From Candidatus Rokuibacteriota bacterium (GTDB taxonomy: Bacteria; Methylomirabilota; Methylomirabilia; Rokubacteriales; CSP1-6): a DNA stretch of 42,184 nt. Position 1 is the first letter of the stretch. Each line of letters begins with the position of its first letter. Positions 23,402 to 37,234 of this stretch are shown piece after piece. The stretch covers positions 1-42,184 of the forward strand of contig JAUSJX010000013.1 in NCBI GenBank assembly GCA_030647435.1. Direction: 5' to 3'. The translations under genes were made by a program, and so were the position numbers. Below the pieces are notes generated by a model. That model was not told where the DNA came from. It made no database searches and saw only the letters and a list, made by a program, of their open reading frames with translations.

Positions 23402-23448
23402 CTGCCTACTTGGTAGGCAGCGGCCAGGTTCTGCCTCAGAAAACGGCA
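23402..23448. promoter_or_regulatory. Tandem NtrC-like enhancer upstream of urtA
   Basis: Two 17-bp dyads of the form TGCC-N9-GGCA lie at 23403-23419 (TGCCTACTTGGTAGGCA) and 23432-23448 (TGCCTCAGAAAACGGCA), 29 bp centre to centre. The overall 17-bp TGC-N11-GCA frame is that of NtrC sites (TGCACY-N5-GGTGCA). They sit about 90-135 bases upstream of the predicted start. The first is also a near-perfect 12-bp stem, so an RNA role is not excluded. Confidence 0.6.
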
Positions 23449-27304: not shown

Positions 27305-27832
<528 letters not shown>

Positions 27833-28243
27833 TCAGTCGCGCCAGAGGGTCTCTTCGACTGCGCGGCGGGACTTGAGATTCGCGTCTGTCTCGACTGGTC
27901 GAGGCAGCGCGGCCTCGAGAGCGCTCCAGACATTGCGGAGGTCGGGGCTCTTCTGAGCCGGAAACACGCCCGGGATGGCGGGTGGGCTGTCCATGGTGAA
28001 CGTGCCCGAACAGACTATTACCGGGACCTTCAATCCGCGCCGCTCCATCTGGCGAAGGAAAGCCATGCCGTCGAGGTGAGGCATTCGGAGGTCGAGTACG
28101 ATGATATCCGGCCGCACCCGGTCGAGGGCCGCCAACGCGTCGAGCCCGTCCACCGCCTCGAAGACTTCGAAGTCTCCCTCGAAGCCCATCCGATACAGAG
28201 CCCGCCAAGCCGGATCGTCGTCGACCACCAGCATCTTCATCAT
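27833..28243 (-). CDS. Stand-alone CheY-like receiver protein
   Basis: The 136-residue single-domain response regulator opens MMKMLVVDDDPAWR, has the phospho-acceptor Asp in DIIVLDLRMPHLDG and the Ser in VIVCSG. The following Lys is in AQKSPD. A tail of about 20 residues rich in charge (LKSRRAVEETLWRD) follows. There is no output domain, so it probably acts through protein contacts or as a phosphate sink for the nearby kinases. The second ATG pair (28243) follows GGGAGG by eight bases. It has its own sigma-54 promoter match. Confidence 0.8.
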   Translation of the reverse strand: MMKMLVVDDDPAWRALYRMGFEGDFEVFEAVDGLDALAALDRVRPDIIVLDLRMPHLDGMAFLRQMERRGLKVPVIVCSGTFTMDSPPAIPGVFPAQKSPDLRNVWSALEAALPRPVETDANLKSRRAVEETLWRD

Positions 28244-28269
28244 CGGCGCCACCTCCCGTGCGCCCTAAA

Positions 28270-28285
28270 TGCAATCTGGGGGCCC
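28270..28285 (-). promoter_or_regulatory. Sigma-54 promoter of the CheY-like gene
   Basis: The minus strand reads GGGCCCCCAGATTGCA: GGC, C6 and TTGCA match with the correct 12-bp GG-to-GC spacing. The predicted start near 28259 leaves a 16-base leader carrying GGGAGG. Confidence 0.5.
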
Positions 28286-28323
28286 GGCGGGGAGGGGTCG
28301 ATTATCAGGCACTTAGGGACCCA

Positions 28324-28366
28324 GTGTCAGCGAAGACGTCACCGGCGTGACGGTAGAGCCTGACAC
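28324..28366. promoter_or_regulatory. Nested palindrome, probable activator site
   Basis: GTGTCAG (28324-28330) and CTGACAC (28360-28366) form an outer inverted repeat. CGTCAC-CGGC-GTGACG (28337-28352) forms a perfect inner one with almost the same centre. It sits about 65-107 bases upstream of the predicted sigma-54 start and 23 bases after the NtrC-like gene. It could be an enhancer for that activator, or its terminator. Confidence 0.45.
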
Positions 28367-28388: not shown

Positions 28389-29744
28389 CTAGGTGCGCCG
28401 CTGGGGGATGTTGTGGCGGCGCATCTTCGAATACAGAGTGGGCCGGCGAAGGCCCAGAATGGCCGCCGCCGCTTGCTTGTTCCACCCCGTCGATTCGAGC
28501 GCGCGCACTATCGAGAGACGCTCGATCTCCTCGAGGGACCCGGCGGGCGGGATGGCAGTCAGGAGCGGTGCGCCGGCGTTGAGGGCTTCGGGCAGGTCGG
28601 CCGCCGTCACCTGACGCCCGCGGGCCACCAGCACGGCGCGCTCAATGACGTGCTCGAGCTCGCGCACGTTGCCGGGCCACATGTAGGACAGAAGCCGCCT
28701 GAACGCCTCGGGGTCTATCCCCTCCACCGGCCTGTTGTGCTTGAGCCGGAAGCGGTCGAAGAAGCCCTTCACGAGGAGGGGAATATCGTGGGCCTTCTCC
28801 CGGAGCGGCGGCAATTCCACCGTCACGGTGTTGATTCGGAAGTAGAGGTCCTGTCTCAGAGAGCCGTCGCGGACCGCGGCCTCGGGGTCGCGGTTCGTCG
28901 AGGAAATGAGCCGGAAATCGACGGGCACGGCGCGGCTGCCGCCCAGGCGCCGCACGCTCCGGTCTTCCAGCACGCGCAGGAGCTTGGCCTGGAGGTCCGG
29001 CGGCATCTCCGTGATCTCGTCGAGGAGGAGAGAGCCCTTGTGGGCCTCCTCGAGGAGGCCCGGCCGGTCCGAGGTGGCGCCCGTGAAGGCGCCCTTGACG
29101 TGCCCGAAGAGTTCGGACTCGATGAGATCCTTCGGCAGCGCGGCGCAGTTGATCTTGATCAGGGGCCCCTGGGCGCGCGGGCTCTTGGCGTGGACGGCGT
29201 TGGCGGCCAGCTCCTTGCCCGTGCCGCTCTCTCCCACGATAAAGACGTTGGCGTCGGACGCGGCGACCGAGTCGAGCAGCTCGAACACGCGCCGCATGGT
29301 GGGCGAGCCTCCGAGCATCTCGCCGTACCCCATCTGCTCCGCGAGCTGCCGCTTCAGGTCAGAGGTCTCGGCCAGGAGTCCCCGCCGCTCGAGCGCCTTG
29401 CCGAGCAGGGTCAGCATCTCGGCCGAGTCGAAGGGCTTGGTCACGAAGTAGAAGGCGCCTTCCTTGGTCGCCTCCACGGCCTTCGAGATCGAGCCGTGGC
29501 CCGTCATGATGATGACCTCGATGTCGGGGTCGCGACTCTTGAGCAGCCTCAGGAGACCGATGCCGTCGCCGTCGGGCAGAACGAGGTCCACGAGCGCCAC
29601 GGAGAAGTCGCGGCCGTCCAGGCGCGCGGCCGCCTCAGCCGTGCTCACCGCTGTTTCCACGACGTAGCCTTCGCGTTCGAGAATGAGCCGCAGGCCCTCC
29701 GCGATCGCGGGCTCGTCGTCAACAACCAGCACAACCGGCTTCAT
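28389..29744 (-). CDS. NtrC-class sigma-54-dependent response regulator
   Basis: The 451-residue activator has a receiver with Asp53 (ALVDLVLPDGDG) and Lys in VTKPFD. The AAA+ domain carries Walker A GESGTGKE (171-178), the sigma-54-contacting GAFTGA loop (218-223), Walker B SLLLDE and the arginine-finger region. A C-terminal Fis-type helix-turn-helix follows (WNKQAAAAILGLRRPTLYSKMRRH). All parts needed to activate sigma-54 promoters are present. It follows two kinase genes. Whether it is the NtrC of nitrogen control or a separate regulator cannot be told from the sequence. Confidence 0.93.
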   Translation of the reverse strand: MKPVVLVVDDEPAIAEGLRLILEREGYVVETAVSTAEAAARLDGRDFSVALVDLVLPDGDGIGLLRLLKSRDPDIEVIIMTGHGSISKAVEATKEGAFYFVTKPFDSAEMLTLLGKALERRGLLAETSDLKRQLAEQMGYGEMLGGSPTMRRVFELLDSVAASDANVFIVGESGTGKELAANAVHAKSPRAQGPLIKINCAALPKDLIESELFGHVKGAFTGATSDRPGLLEEAHKGSLLLDEITEMPPDLQAKLLRVLEDRSVRRLGGSRAVPVDFRLISSTNRDPEAAVRDGSLRQDLYFRINTVTVELPPLREKAHDIPLLVKGFFDRFRLKHNRPVEGIDPEAFRRLLSYMWPGNVRELEHVIERAVLVARGRQVTAADLPEALNAGAPLLTAIPPAGSLEEIERLSIVRALESTGWNKQAAAAILGLRRPTLYSKMRRHNIPQRRT

Positions 29745-29773
29745 GGCACCACCAGCACAACCGGCTTCATGGC
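29725..29773. repeat. 23-bp direct repeat at the kinase/regulator junction
   Basis: The same 23 bases occur at 29725-29747 and 29751-29773 (period 26). Each contains the regulator's ATG and first codons (MKPVVLV). The duplication places a spare start codon 26 bases upstream, in another frame. Confidence 0.9.
29741..29770 (-). CDS. Nine-codon leader ORF between kinase and NtrC-like genes
   Basis: The duplicated start gives a 9-codon ORF (MKPVVLVVP). Its ATG overlaps the kinase stop as ATGA, and its own TGA overlaps the regulator ATG, also as ATGA. Ribosomes could step from kinase to leader to regulator. It is a by-product of the 26-bp duplication; whether it is translated is unknown. Confidence 0.35.
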   Translation of the reverse strand: MKPVVLVVP

Positions 29774-31239
29774 GCCCCCAGCGGCAGGAGCACCCGCGCC
29801 TGCGTGCCCCGCCCGAGCTGGCTCCGGATGTCCATGCGTCCCCCGTGCTGCTCCACGACGGTGCGCGCGATGGCCATGCCGAGACCGGTGCCGCTGTCCT
29901 TGGTGGTGAAGAAGAGATCGAAGACGCGCGCGCGCGTCTCCTCGGACATGCCGCAGCCCGTGTCCTCCACCACCGCCTCGACGAGTCCCCGCTCTGCTGG
30001 GCGCGTGCGCAGCGTCAGCGTTCCCCCCGCCTCCATGGCCTCGAGCGCGTTGACGATGAGGTTGAGGAAAACCTTGCGGATCTCGCGGGGATCGAGCGCG
30101 GCCTGCGGAAGCGCCGGGTCGAGCTCGAACACCACGCGGATCTCCTTGCCCGCCACGCGGGCCTGGGCAAGGGCGAGGCAGGACTCCAGCAGGCCGTTGA
30201 CATTGGTGGGAACGCGCCGCAAAGACCCCGGCCGGCCGAACTGGGTGATCTCGCGAACCAGGTCGGTCATGTGGTCCACTTCGCGGCTGATCTTGCCGGC
30301 CACCTCGGAGCCCTCGGTGTCCCCGGCCTTGCCGAGCCTGTGCTCGAGATACTCGGCGAAGAGCTTGAGGCCGCCCAGCGGATTCCGGAGCTCGTGCGCC
30401 ACCTGGGCAGCCATGCGCCCGAGCGCCGCCAGTGCGCCGCTTCTCAGGCGCTCCAGCTCCCGCGTATTCTTGAGCGCCACCGCGGCTTGCGAGGAGAAGA
30501 TCGCGAGCAGGTCGAGGTCGTCCGCCGTCGGCTCCACCCGTGTCTCAACTACGAGCGCGCCGGCGGCCCCGCCGCCAACGAACAGCGGAGCGCCCAGCAG
30601 CACCCGCCCGTCGGCGTCGGCCACCGCGGCGGGGATCTTCCGCTCGATCACTGCCTCCGCCGTCTTGGCGAGCTGGTCGATGGAGCCGGGCGCGGCACCG
30701 GCGCTGGCCATGGGCACGAGGCGGCCCTCTTCGAGCAAGAAGACCACGGCCCTTTCGGCCTCGGTCGCCTCGACCGTGGCGTGCGCGATCGCGTCGAGGA
30801 CGCGCTCCATGGTGCCGGAGGATCCCAGCGCTTCGCCCACGGACTTCAACAGCGTCCGGTCGCGGGTCCACCGGCGCGCGGACAGCGCGCGGCCGACCTT
30901 GCCGCGCAGCTCCTCGGGCACGAAGGGCTTCGTCAGATAGTCGAAGGCGCCCTGCCGCACGGCTTCGACCGCGTTGTCGATGGTGCCATGCGCGGTCATG
31001 ATGAGCACGGGCAGGCGTGGCTGGCGCTCGTGCGCGGCCTCCATCAGCTTGAGGCCGTTGACGGGCTCCATGCGCAGGTCGAAGAGCGCCACGTCGAAGC
31101 CGCGGTCGTCGAGGAGCGTGACGGCCTCCCCGTAGTTCCTCGCGAGCGTCACGTCGAGCCCCATGGATTGCAGCCGCATCTCCAGGACCTCGAGGATGTC
31201 CGGATCATCGTCTACGACCAGCGCGCGCGCGGCCTTCAC
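29767..31239 (-). CDS. Soluble REC-GAF-histidine kinase
   Basis: The 490-residue cytoplasmic protein has an N-terminal receiver (Asp54 in VALFDLRMEP, Lys in LTKPF), a GAF-like sensor (about 130-260) and a HisKA domain with H box QVAHELRNPLGG (His282). The ATPase has N (LNLIVNALEAM), G1 (DTGCGMS) and G2 (GTGLGMAIART) boxes. The H box and NtrB-like ATPase suit a partner of the NtrC-class regulator encoded next. The receiver may take phosphate from the upstream membrane kinase, making a phosphorelay. The start overlaps the upstream kinase stop as ATGA. Confidence 0.88.
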   Translation of the reverse strand: MKAARALVVDDDPDILEVLEMRLQSMGLDVTLARNYGEAVTLLDDRGFDVALFDLRMEPVNGLKLMEAAHERQPRLPVLIMTAHGTIDNAVEAVRQGAFDYLTKPFVPEELRGKVGRALSARRWTRDRTLLKSVGEALGSSGTMERVLDAIAHATVEATEAERAVVFLLEEGRLVPMASAGAAPGSIDQLAKTAEAVIERKIPAAVADADGRVLLGAPLFVGGGAAGALVVETRVEPTADDLDLLAIFSSQAAVALKNTRELERLRSGALAALGRMAAQVAHELRNPLGGLKLFAEYLEHRLGKAGDTEGSEVAGKISREVDHMTDLVREITQFGRPGSLRRVPTNVNGLLESCLALAQARVAGKEIRVVFELDPALPQAALDPREIRKVFLNLIVNALEAMEAGGTLTLRTRPAERGLVEAVVEDTGCGMSEETRARVFDLFFTTKDSGTGLGMAIARTVVEQHGGRMDIRSQLGRGTQARVLLPLGAP

Positions 31240-32672
31240 CGCTCGCCCCCTGCCGATGCGGCCCCGACCGGGGGCGCGACGTCCTTAGGCAGGCGCACGA
31301 GGAAGCGGCTCCCCCGCCCCTCCTCGGACTCGACCTGGATGCGCCCGCCGTGCGCCTCGACGAGCCCCTTCACGATGGCGAGCCCCAGTCCGGAGCCTCC
31401 GCGTCCCCTGTGGGCCTGCTTGTACGGGTCGAAGATGCGCGGGAGGTCCGTCGCCGGAATGCCGATGCCCGTGTCCTCGACCGCGATCTCGAGCTCGGGA
31501 CCCAAGTCGGTCAGTCTGACCGTCACCGCAGCCCCGTGTGGCGTGAACTTGATGGCATTGCCGACCAGGTTGACGACCACGCGGAGCAACCGGTCCTCGT
31601 CGCCCTGCAGCGCGAAATCCGAGCCGCTGGTGGCGCGCCCGAGGACCAGGCCCTTGTCCTCGACCTGCGGGCGCAGCTCCTCGAGCGCGCGCACGACGAC
31701 CTTCTCCATGTCCACCGCGCGGCGCTCGAGCGGGAGCAGGCGCGCGCGGAGGCGCGAGTGCTCGAGCACCTGGTTCACGAGCCGAAGGAGCCGATCCGAG
31801 CTCGCGGCGATGATGTCCACCAATCGCGCCTGCTTGGCCGTGAGCGGCCCCTGCACGCGATCGAGCAGCAGATGGGTCGCCTCCTTGACCGAGGTGAGCG
31901 GCGTTCGCAGCTCGTGCGATATGTGCGAGAAGAACTCCTCCTTGAGGTGGTCCACCTCGCGAAGGCGCAGAGCCATGCGGTTGAAGGAGCGCGCCAGCTC
32001 CCCGATTTCGTCGCGGCTCGTCACGGGAAGCGGATGCGTGAAGGAGCCGTCGGCCACCTGGGTCGTGGCGATCGAGAGCCGGCGGAGCGAACGCCTGAGG
32101 TGCACGGCCAGGAAGGCCGTCGTCGCGAGCGCTGCCGCCAGGCTCGCCAGGAGAGCCCAGAACACGGTGTTCCACGTGTGTCCCTCGAGCTGCCGCGCTT
32201 CGAGCTGGGCTTCCTCGAGCGCGCCGTACGTGGCGCCCAGCATCCGGTCGAGGTACGCCCCCGTGCGGTCGGCCGCGAAGCGCCGCTCGGCGTCGAGGCC
32301 GGGCCCCATCGCCGCGAGCCGACGGTAGATGGCAAAGGCGACCATCGCTTCCTGGTGCTGCGACCGCTCCTCCTCACTGCTGAGGAAGGAGCGCGAGAGG
32401 TCGAAGTCCTTGGCTATCCGTGCGGCGCGATCGTTCCAGGCCCTTTGCGCAGGCTCCGCCGCGGCCGGCCTGGCGTCCATCTCGGTCCGCGTGAGACCGC
32501 CCAGCTGCTCGCGCAGCGAGGTGCCCATCCGAAGGGCCGGCAGAGACTGAGTCGCCATGCCTCGATTGACGTCGACCAACCGGCTGATGGCCAGCAGGCT
32601 CCAGGTGGCGACCCCAACCAGCGCCACGATGACGAGCGCCGAAGTCATGAACACCTTGTAGGGCAACCGCAT
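31236..32672 (-). CDS. Membrane sensor histidine kinase (HAMP type)
   Basis: The 478-residue kinase has TM1 (about 8-28), a helical periplasmic four-helix-bundle-like sensor of about 140 residues, TM2 (about 169-190), HAMP (191-243) and an H box FFSHISHELRTPLTS with His253. N (VVNLVGNAIKFTP), G1 (DTGIGIP) and G2 (GSGLGLAIVKG) boxes follow. The ATG at 32672 follows GGGAG by five bases. It is the first gene of the signalling operon. The ligand is unknown. Confidence 0.88.
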   Translation of the reverse strand: MRLPYKVFMTSALVIVALVGVATWSLLAISRLVDVNRGMATQSLPALRMGTSLREQLGGLTRTEMDARPAAAEPAQRAWNDRAARIAKDFDLSRSFLSSEEERSQHQEAMVAFAIYRRLAAMGPGLDAERRFAADRTGAYLDRMLGATYGALEEAQLEARQLEGHTWNTVFWALLASLAAALATTAFLAVHLRRSLRRLSIATTQVADGSFTHPLPVTSRDEIGELARSFNRMALRLREVDHLKEEFFSHISHELRTPLTSVKEATHLLLDRVQGPLTAKQARLVDIIAASSDRLLRLVNQVLEHSRLRARLLPLERRAVDMEKVVVRALEELRPQVEDKGLVLGRATSGSDFALQGDEDRLLRVVVNLVGNAIKFTPHGAAVTVRLTDLGPELEIAVEDTGIGIPATDLPRIFDPYKQAHRGRGGSGLGLAIVKGLVEAHGGRIQVESEEGRGSRFLVRLPKDVAPPVGAASAGGER

Positions 32673-32934: not shown

Positions 32935-33918
32935 ATGGACTTCGGCTTCGCCCTTCCCGGCCGCGGATCGCTTGCCACCCCCGAAATCGTGATCAAGCTT
33001 GCGCGCAAGGCGGACGAGCTCCGCTACTCGTCGATCTTCGTCACGGACCACGTCGTGATCCCGGCGAGCCAGAGCGCGCCCTATCCCTACTCTCCGACGG
33101 GCAAGTTCGCCGGCGACTGGCGGAACGGGTACCTCGAGCCGCTGACGCTGCTGAGCTACCTTGCCGGCGAGACGTCGCGCGTGAGGCTCGGGACGAGCGT
33201 GCTGGTCATCCCCTACCGCAATCCCGTGGTCACGGCCAAGATGCTGGCGACGCTGGATGTGCTCTCCGGAGGCCGCATCATCCTCGGGGCGGGCGTCGGC
33301 TGGTTCAAGGAGGAGTTCGAGGCGCTCCACGCCGAGCCGTTCGAGCGGCGCGGAGCGGTCACCGACGAGTATCTGCATCTCATGCGCGCGTGCTGGACCC
33401 GCGAGCCGGTGGACTGGCAGGGCGCCTTCTACGGTATGGGACCGGTCAGCGCCATGCCCAAGCCGCGGCAGAAGGGCGGCATCCCGATCTGGGTCGGCGG
33501 GCACACGGACGCCGCGCTGCGCCGGGCAGGCGAGCTCTCTGACGGATGGCATCCCATCGGCCTCAGGCCTCCCGCCATGCTGCTCCCGGAAGAGTACCGC
33601 GACAAGGTCGCCATCATCCGTGACTGGGCGCGGAAGGCCAGGCGTGATCCGAGGGCGATCACGCTGTCCTTCCGCTGCCCGCTGGAAGTGCTCCCGAAGC
33701 GCGCCAAGCCCGCGGGAGGCGAGCGGCAGCTCTTCCGGGGCACGGCCGCCGACGTGATCGGGGACCTCAAAGCCTACGAGGCGCTCGGCGTCACCCACTT
33801 CGTCTTCGACCCGGTCGCGCAGGACCTCCGGGGCTGGCTCGCCATCATGGAGCGTTTCGCCGAAGAGGTCCGCCCCCGGATGCGCGGCAGCTCGGGCCCT
33901 CGCCGGGTCACCGCATGA
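32935..33918 (+). CDS. LLM-class F420-dependent oxidoreductase
   Basis: The 327-residue luciferase-like TIM-barrel protein opens MDFGFALPGRGSLATPE. It contains SSIFVTDHVVIP, VRLGTSVLVIPYRNPV, LSGGRIILGAGVGWFKEEF and PIWVGGHTDAALRRAG. These are typical of F420-using LLM proteins. The substrate is unknown. It is first in a plus-strand run that includes all F420 biosynthesis genes, which supports F420 rather than FMN as cofactor. Confidence 0.88.
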   Translation: MDFGFALPGRGSLATPEIVIKLARKADELRYSSIFVTDHVVIPASQSAPYPYSPTGKFAGDWRNGYLEPLTLLSYLAGETSRVRLGTSVLVIPYRNPVVTAKMLATLDVLSGGRIILGAGVGWFKEEFEALHAEPFERRGAVTDEYLHLMRACWTREPVDWQGAFYGMGPVSAMPKPRQKGGIPIWVGGHTDAALRRAGELSDGWHPIGLRPPAMLLPEEYRDKVAIIRDWARKARRDPRAITLSFRCPLEVLPKRAKPAGGERQLFRGTAADVIGDLKAYEALGVTHFVFDPVAQDLRGWLAIMERFAEEVRPRMRGSSGPRRVTA

Positions 33919-34343
33919 GCGCCCTGCCGGTCGACGTGACCGAGTTCATCGCGAGCGCCCGTCTGGGCCGGCTCGCCACGGCGGACGGGGCGGGCCAGCC
34001 GCTGGTCGTGCCGTTTTGTTACGCATGGGACGGCGAGGCGCTCGTCTCGGCCATTGACGCCAAGCCCAAGCGCGCTGGTGACCTCAAGCGCGTGCGCAAC
34101 ATCCGCGAGAACCCCAAGGTCTCCGTCGTGATCGACCACTACGACGAGGACTGGCGCCGGCTCCGCTGGGTCATCATCCAAGGGCTCGCCGAGATCCTCA
34201 CGGCCGGGCACGATTTCGCCGCCGGCATCGACCTTCTCCTGTCGAAGTACCCTCAGTATCGCGGCATGGGGCTTTCGCGAGACCAGGGAACCATGATCAA
34301 GGTCAGGCCAGGGAAGGTCCTCCAGTGGCGCTACGCGAGCTAG
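33915..34343 (+). CDS. PPOX-class (split-barrel) probable F420-dependent protein
   Basis: The 142-residue split-barrel protein reads FIASARLGRLATADGAGQPLVVPFCYAWDGE. It contains KPKRAGDLKRVRNIRENPKVSVVIDHY, typical of the TIGR03668-like PPOX family. Relatives bind F420 or flavin and reduce small substrates. Its ATG overlaps the previous stop as ATGA. The reaction is unknown. Confidence 0.82.
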   Translation: MSALPVDVTEFIASARLGRLATADGAGQPLVVPFCYAWDGEALVSAIDAKPKRAGDLKRVRNIRENPKVSVVIDHYDEDWRRLRWVIIQGLAEILTAGHDFAAGIDLLLSKYPQYRGMGLSRDQGTMIKVRPGKVLQWRYAS

Positions 34344-35508
34344 CCGCGGTCGAGCGCGCCGCGGGGGGCCGCGTACCCACCGCGGAGGAGGCGGTCGCCC
34401 TGCTAAGGACGCCCGCGTCGCTGATGCCCGACCTGCTCGCCGCAGCGGCGGCGGCGAGGGACCGGGGTCGCGGCCGCCGCATGACCTTCTCGGCCAAGAT
34501 CTTCGTACCGCTGACCAATCTCTGCCGCGACTACTGCGGGTACTGCACCTTCCGCCGCGATCCAGGCGACCCGGGCGCACTGACCATGACGCCGGAGCAG
34601 GTCGTAGCGCTCGCCCGTGCGGGCGAGCGCCTCGGCGCCAAAGAAGCGCTCTTCTCGTTGGGCGACCGGCCGGAGGCGCTCTTCCCCGAGTACCGCCAGT
34701 TCCTGCGGCGCATGGGCCACAGGACGACGCTCGACTATCTGCGCGCGGTGTCGGCGCTGGTCGTCAGCGAGACGAGCCTCCTGCCCCACGCCAATCCGGG
34801 CGTGATGGGCGAGCGTGACCTGTCGTCGCTCCGCGAAGTCAACGTCAGCATGGGCATCATGCTCGAGACGACCTCGGAGCGGCTGCTCGGCCCGGGCCTC
34901 GCCCACGACCGCGCCCCCGACAAAGTGCCGGCTCGCCGCCTCCGGACCATCGCGCTCGCCGGCAAGCTGTCGATCCCCTTCACCACGGGCATTCTCATCG
35001 GCATCGGCGAGACCCACGCAGAGCGCGTCGAGGCGCTGCTCGCGATCCGCGATCTGCACGAGCGCTACGGGCACATCCAGGAAGTCATCGTCCAGAACTT
35101 CCGCCGGAAGCCCGGTATTCCGATGCGCGACCATCCCGAGCCGGTGATGGACGACCTCCTCCGGACGGCCGCGGTGGCGCGACTCCTGCTCGGCCCCGAC
35201 ATGAACATCCAGGTGCCGCCCAACCTCTCCGACGCGGACTTTGCGCGGCTGCCCGACGCGGGCATCAACGACTGGGGCGGCGTCTCGCCTCTGACCCCCG
35301 ACCACATCAACCCCGAGCGGCCGTGGCCCGGGCTCGCGGCGCTCCGGCGCGCCACCGAGCGGGCGGGCCTCGAGCTGCGTGAGCGCCTGGCCGTCTATCC
35401 CGAGTACGCGGCGCGCTCCGAGTTCGTCCACGAAGCCCTGCGCCCGCGCGTGCGCGGCCTCGTGGACGCCGACGGCCTCGTGAGAGGCGACCTCGAAAGG
35501 TGGCGAAC

Positions 35509-35518
<10 letters not shown>
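34325..35518 (+). CDS. cofG: FO synthase subunit CofG (radical SAM)
   Basis: The 397-residue radical-SAM enzyme has the iron-sulfur motif Cys67-x3-Cys71-x2-Cys74 (NLCRDYCGYC). Family segments are MLETTSERLL, GILIGIGET, QEVIVQNFRRKPG and NDWGGVSPLTPDHINPERPWP. With CofH it joins tyrosine and a flavin precursor to form 7,8-didemethyl-8-hydroxy-5-deazariboflavin (FO), the F420 chromophore. The start is a GTG overlapping the previous gene by 19 bases. It is separate from CofH, unlike the fused FbiC of actinobacteria. Confidence 0.95.
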
Positions 35519-36807
<1,289 letters not shown>

Positions 36808-36946: not shown

Positions 36947-37234
36947 ATGGCAAAACCCATGAGCAAGTCCGCCACCATCGCTCACCTCGCCCAGAAGACC
37001 GGCCTGGCGAAGAAGCAGGTGGTCGATCTCTTCGAGCAGCTCGAAGGGCTCGCGGTCAAGGAAGCCAAGAACATCTTCGTGCTGCCTCACTTCGGGCGGC
37101 TGGTGCTGGCCAACCGCAAGGCGCGGATGGGCCGCAACCCGCAGACCGGCGAGCCGATCAAGATCCCGGCCAAGCGCGTCGTGAAGTTCCGGTTGGCCAA
37201 GAGCATCAAGGACGCGGTGCTTGGCAAGAAGTAA
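36947..37234 (+). CDS. HU/IHF-family nucleoid protein
   Basis: The 95-residue DNA-binding protein has the HU fold: N-terminal helices (KSATIAHLAQKTGLAKKQVVDLFEQ), then RMGRNPQTGEPIKIPAKRVVKFRLAKSIKDAV. GRNPQTG and the following DNA-bending arm are diagnostic. The ATG follows GGAGG by eight bases. It splits the F420 genes into two groups and probably has its own promoter. Confidence 0.92.
   Translation: MAKPMSKSATIAHLAQKTGLAKKQVVDLFEQLEGLAVKEAKNIFVLPHFGRLVLANRKARMGRNPQTGEPIKIPAKRVVKFRLAKSIKDAVLGKK

Follow-up and report, generated by a model that had tools for sequence, protein, structure and literature searches.

The stretch of DNA analysed here (the window, 42,184 nucleotides) comes from a Candidatus Rokuibacteriota genome of 5.8 Mb in 176 contigs. 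Its minus strand carries, in the order of transcription, the genes hk2, hk1, a gene for an NtrC-class activator, rec, glnK, amtB, glnA, an ANTAR regulator gene and the genes of a urea-type ABC transporter, which beyond its binding protein we take to be of that type from the reading frames. The hk2 gene (31236-32672, minus strand, ATG at 32672) encodes a membrane histidine kinase with a HAMP domain, and hk1 (29767-31239, minus strand) a histidine kinase with receiver, GAF, HisKA and HATPase domains. The activator (28389-29744, minus strand) has the receiver, the AAA+ domain with GAFTGA and the Fis-type HTH of the NtrC class; it reached 392.7 bits against the NCBIfam ntrC model, below the cut-off of 558.6 for NtrC proper. 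The rec gene (27833-28243, minus strand) encodes a stand-alone receiver protein (Pfam Response_reg, 1.9e-17), and glnK (27305-27646, minus strand) a PII protein. On the plus strand, F420 genes were found at 32935-36807, encoding LLM-class and PPOX-class F420-dependent oxidoreductases, CofG and CofH.

A search of sixty relatives with the activator as query revealed that rec lies between the activator gene and glnK in the genus of the window and in the genera g3, g7, g10 and g16, with a degraded form in g23. In family members elsewhere, glnK usually follows the activator gene directly and rec is absent between them. The regulator gene and rec persist without adjacent kinase genes in genus g10. 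The rec gene of one genome (G026, L021/L058) is apparently broken, as its two halves match in different frames.

The promoter region of rec

The best start of rec is the ATG at 28243, eight bases after GGGAGG, which is the correct spacing; it was preferred because the GTG at 28252 would fall inside the ribosome binding site. Upstream of it, a predicted sigma-54 -24/-12 element, GGGCCCCCAGATTGCA, occupies exactly the positions given for it in the earlier note (28285-28270, minus strand). This element (GGGCCC-CCAGA-TTGCA) matches 9 of 11 consensus positions with GG-N10-GC, and it would place the transcription start at about 28259. Sites as good as this one occur in the window at 1.7e-4 per base and strand, so that the chance of finding one in the right place is about 0.5%. 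When eleven rec upstream regions from six genera were compared, GG-N10-GC was found in all of them, and a search of the genome showed that rpoN is present; sigma-54 control of rec, as the earlier note had proposed, is supported by this conservation.

Both palindromes described in the earlier note are present and their arms are exact, CGTCAC (28337-28342) and GTGACG (28347-28352) in the inner one, GTGTCAG (28324-28330) and CTGACAC (28360-28366) in the outer one. Their centres lie half a base apart (28345 and 28344.5), so they are not strictly concentric, and the distance of 65-107 bases from the start that had been given for them holds when counted from the predicted transcription start, but becomes 81-123 from the probable ATG. 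The inner palindrome, CGTCA-N6-TGACG, constitutes the candidate enhancer box CGTCACGCCGGTGACG (28352-28337, minus strand) and follows the consensus yGTCA-N6-TGACr. Its start lies 67-70 bp ahead of the -24 GG in 10 of the 11 rec loci, and its left half is kept in the eleventh (L110). Sites of the CGTCA-N6-TGACG type appeared in 0.07% of shuffles of the rec upstream region, and a box at the conserved distance from the GG in 0-0.3% of the shuffles of single loci. The window and L012/L013 have diverged by 0.7-1.2 at synonymous sites, and although related loci are not independent, the kept positions of box and promoter thus indicate constraint rather than recent descent. A site in enhancer position is supported. 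The outer palindrome fared differently. Its left part contains a half-site, GTGTCA (28366-28361, minus strand), which lies 13 bp upstream of the left half of the box and is kept in seven loci (the window, L010, L012-L015 and L110, the last with one mismatch), but its right arm, CTGACAC (28330-28324, minus strand), survives intact in the window and its nearest relative, L010, alone; in L011 it is degraded, and all relatives further away lack it. The double palindrome hence describes this lineage and not the functional element.

Between the box and the -24/-12 element, an IHF-like site, TAAGTGCCTGATA (28315-28303, minus strand), matches 8 of the 9 positions of YAANNNNTTGATW. In each of the eleven rec promoters, the distance from the -24 GG up to the start of a match to this consensus is 30-31 bp. 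Since some relatives, L012 and L015 among them, have weak individual matches, and some matches are no better than chance, the argument for the site relies on its constant position, and with it at a fixed place in all eleven the full order of enhancer, bend and -24/-12 element is kept. Most glnK promoters have a corresponding IHF-like site 39-43 bp upstream of the GG, about one helical turn away from the position in the rec promoters; in the window this is a 9/9 match, CAAGCATTTGATT (27713-27725, minus strand). Five genes of the HU/IHF family were found in the genome. A gene of this family in the window (36959-37219, plus strand) has IHF alpha as its best match, below the curated cut-off, and a perfect IHF consensus, TAAGAACTTGATT, was observed upstream of hk2 (32779-32767, minus strand).

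Two readings that would dispense with an enhancer have been considered. The rec gene might be transcribed from a sigma-70 promoter, CTGACA-N18-GATAAT (28330-28301), which matches 10 of 12 consensus positions, with the palindromes acting as an operator over its -35, for example of the CRP/FNR type. The geometry of the palindrome resembles that of CRP-family sites, and at hk2 a putative -35 is likewise covered by a copy of the box. However, only the window and L010 have the arm containing the -35 in intact form, and more distant relatives, in which the -24/-12 element and the IHF-like site persist, lack both hexamers; this promoter was rejected as not conserved, and we regard the reading as very unlikely. 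The palindrome could also be nothing more than a transcription terminator of the regulator operon, a possibility that the earlier note had named against itself. A two-stage hairpin (-23.9 kcal/mol, z -2.15) is possible in the RNA of the window, but a U-tract is absent, the terminator search did not report the palindrome, L011 folds differently, and in four more distant relatives the z values (-0.9 to +1.4) show folding no better than that of shuffles. Together with the fixed spacing of the palindrome to the promoter, these results make a terminator hardly credible, and the objection that the earlier note had named is not borne out. Judged by sequence comparison, 28366-28270 is a real and conserved sigma-54 promoter, known in kind, with the standard anatomy of enhancer, IHF site and sigma-54 element and with an unusual receiver as its product.

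Copies of the box and its possible binders

A second copy of yGTCA-N6-TGACr, TGTCAGTCTGGTGACG (32722-32707, minus strand), overlaps the putative -35 in the promoter of the operon of hk2, hk1 and the regulator. This copy is conserved in G001, G002, G004 and G010 and was found upstream of hk2 in 5/5 rec-bearing clusters examined, while none was found in the nine clusters without rec (0/9). The exact box has 36 matches in the genome of the window, and most of those examined fall within coding frames. Among the examined matches, five intergenic copies lie outside the window, four of them followed by a sigma-54-like element. Boxes with such elements precede genes for a two-partner-secretion (TPS) exoprotein (L084 2419, minus-strand numbering), a NERD/helicase protein (L096 1650), a MurB-like protein (L087 2100, minus-strand numbering) and a FeeM-type acyltransferase (L088 2089), and the copy before the exoprotein gene shares the stretch CCTAAGTRCYTGRTAAT with rec. 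A wide regulon of the exact box was rejected, because most of the examined matches are coding and the genes behind the intergenic copies share no theme. A common copy is found before a FecR-domain gene in G002 and G004. These occurrences suggest that, in the lineage, more than one activator makes use of GTCA-type boxes. A search of G001, which is 99% complete, gave three matches of box plus sigma-54 element, of which two were judged coding from their sequence, leaving the rec site as the sole intergenic one. The regions downstream of activator paralogues with 46-48% identity contained no yGTCA-type box, except in genus g4. Elsewhere, in L283 (G007) and L289 (G028), a GTCA-N6-TGAC palindrome with a sigma-54 element stands directly behind the gene of a different activator, which parallels the arrangement at rec.

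The metabolic genes of the cluster carry a different box. Upstream of glnK, a pair of TGCC-N9-GGCA boxes spans 27760-27805 (27760-27776 and 27789-27805, minus strand), with the sigma-54 element CGGCACGACAGGTGCA at 27669-27684 (minus strand), and the same box type is found before glnK across the family. The layout is repeated before urtA and the other urea-type transporter genes, where the pair (23403-23448, minus strand) is accompanied by its own sigma-54 element (23339-23324); in both cases the two boxes are 29 bp apart.

The consensus yGTCA-N6-TGACr equals a published predicted site upstream of DVU2894 orthologues, which are FleQ/FlrA-like sigma-54 activators, and GTCA-N6-TGGC is found at Vibrio cholerae flrBC (PMC4641369). 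The consensus, the orientation and spacing of the half-sites, the location upstream of activator or kinase genes and the use of a sigma-54 activator are alike; by contrast, the rec box precedes a receiver gene within a nitrogen cluster (glnK-amtB-glnA-urt), and a scan of 17 activators of this genome revealed none with a FleQ domain. The PEP-CTERM box shares with the rec promoter the layout of enhancer motif, spacer (about 60 nt) and sigma-54 element, but its motif, which ends TTTACA, and its gene set are unlike those of rec (PMC1569441). PrsR, the PEP-CTERM regulator, was rejected as the binder because the box is maintained in rec-bearing genomes that lack this protein: of the genomes searched, G000 and five without rec gave a PrsR score above the cut-off, and the rec-bearing G001-G004, G006, G010, G013 and G019 did not.

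The interpretation in the earlier note is partly supported. That the neighbouring activator binds the rec box and induces rec has, on the sequence evidence, a little under an even chance, which makes it the likeliest candidate; otherwise the binder would be another of the roughly 25 activators of the genome. According to one alternative, which we hold to be a serious though somewhat doubtful one, the TGCC-N9-GGCA pairs before glnK and urtA are the targets of the neighbouring activator, and a second system feeds rec and the kinase operon through the GTCA box. In clusters without rec the TGCC palindromes, and not the rec box, are the conserved element before glnK, and clusters with and without rec do not differ in the activator's recognition helix, which argues that this protein reads TGCC. 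No exact TGCC-N9-GGCA was found between the regulator gene and rec in the rec-bearing loci, and the extragenic copies with sigma-54 elements described above would point to a wider regulon. Nevertheless, in f8 genomes TGCC boxes lie close to PII genes although the vicinity contains no regulator gene; such boxes need not belong to the neighbouring regulator, and this weakens them as proof of its specificity. The solitary rec site of G001 argues in turn for a binder specific to the cluster, and the scan of 17 activators for FleQ domains and the absence of PrsR from most of the rec-bearing genomes examined also speak against this alternative. The full version of the earlier note, by which the neighbouring regulator binds the palindrome and induces rec and rec then drains phosphate from the kinases, appears unlikely. 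In its favour, the palindrome stands directly after the regulator gene, the operon that includes the regulator has the same box at its promoter and the phospho-acceptor residues of rec are intact. Against it are the competing TGCC-N9-GGCA boxes, the maintenance of regulator and rec without adjacent kinases in g10, and features of the receiver, together with the precedents discussed below, that point equally to direct inhibition.

The rec protein and the proposed circuit

In the alignment of rec orthologues (n=11), D12, D54 and K101 are invariant, D13 is nearly so and a serine or threonine follows beta-4, so the acid pair, phospho-Asp, T/S and Lys of a phosphorylatable receiver were all found. 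The dN/dS of rec against L012/L013, at moderate divergence, is 0.13-0.23, and rec is thus under purifying selection. In the predicted structure, helix alpha-4 is missing between residues 83 and 95, with a local pLDDT of about 67 and a shallow alignment of 11 sequences, and this region is short and proline-rich. The structures nearest to the model are ordinary receivers, and a search of public genomes for named relatives of rec returned generic receivers only.

Two single-domain proteins offer precedents for a feedback role. FixT is a single-domain receiver that inhibits its kinase in a feedback loop and has a 4-Cys motif by which it holds an Fe-S cluster (PMC7078487). The rec protein would resemble it as a single-domain receiver in a two-component circuit, with feedback on a kinase as a proposal, but it differs in its sigma-54 control and its retained phosphorylation residues, and the 4-Cys motif is absent from the alignment of rec orthologues. 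Osp of Rhodobacter sphaeroides is a stand-alone receiver-like protein that acts under regulator control in a kinase-inhibiting feedback loop; it lacks the acid pair and the lysine and is thought not to be phosphorylated (PMC9430884). A similar loop is proposed for rec, in which, unlike in Osp, the acid pair and the lysine are kept. Because of the short, proline-rich alpha-4 region and these precedents, direct kinase inhibition by rec seems at least as likely as a phosphate sink, although a phosphate drain is possible since the phosphorylation residues are retained. As g10 has rec and the activator without adjacent kinases, the partners may lie elsewhere.

In the enterobacterial NtrC control of glnALG, the activator gene is also next to genes for PII, amtB and glnA, the promoters are of the sigma-54 type and a site lies over the -35 of the activator operon. 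The cluster in the window shares these neighbours, the predicted sigma-54 promoters and the site over the -35, here putative. The differences are two unlike box types, an extra receiver gene with its own sigma-54 promoter and, as stated, an activator below the ntrC cut-off.

In the mechanism that we propose, a Fis-type sigma-54 activator would bind the yGTCA-N6-TGACr box at 28352-28337, aided by the half-site at 28366-28361, while an IHF/HU-type protein would bend the DNA at 28315-28303, so that the activator could open sigma-54 polymerase at 28285-28270 and rec would be transcribed from about 28259. The product would most likely feed back on hk1, hk2 or both, either by inhibiting the kinases directly or by serving as a phosphate sink. 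Since the box recurs over the putative -35 of the operon of hk2, hk1 and the regulator, the kinases and rec are probably under the joint control of a single activator. The account as a whole, comprising a sigma-54 rec promoter, a Fis-type activator at the box, an IHF/HU-type bend and rec feedback on the kinases, is in our judgement reasonably probable. A more specific form is tentative and on balance unlikely: one activator would use the GTCA box in two ways, as the enhancer for a receiver lacking alpha-4 and, with a presumed sign of control, as the operator at the promoter from which the kinases and the activator itself are expressed.

The locus offers a fully laid-out sigma-54 promoter, with box, IHF-like bend site and -24/-12 element, whose spacing is kept across genera of an uncharacterised lineage, and a concrete case in which an activator gene beside a box should not be presumed to encode its binder. 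Should rec act back on the kinases, nitrogen signalling would have in it a counterpart of FixT and Osp that is under sigma-54 control. If the two-way use of the box holds, a self-limiting loop would have been grafted onto the nitrogen cluster in one clade, in which the metabolic promoters of glnK and urtA use a different box.
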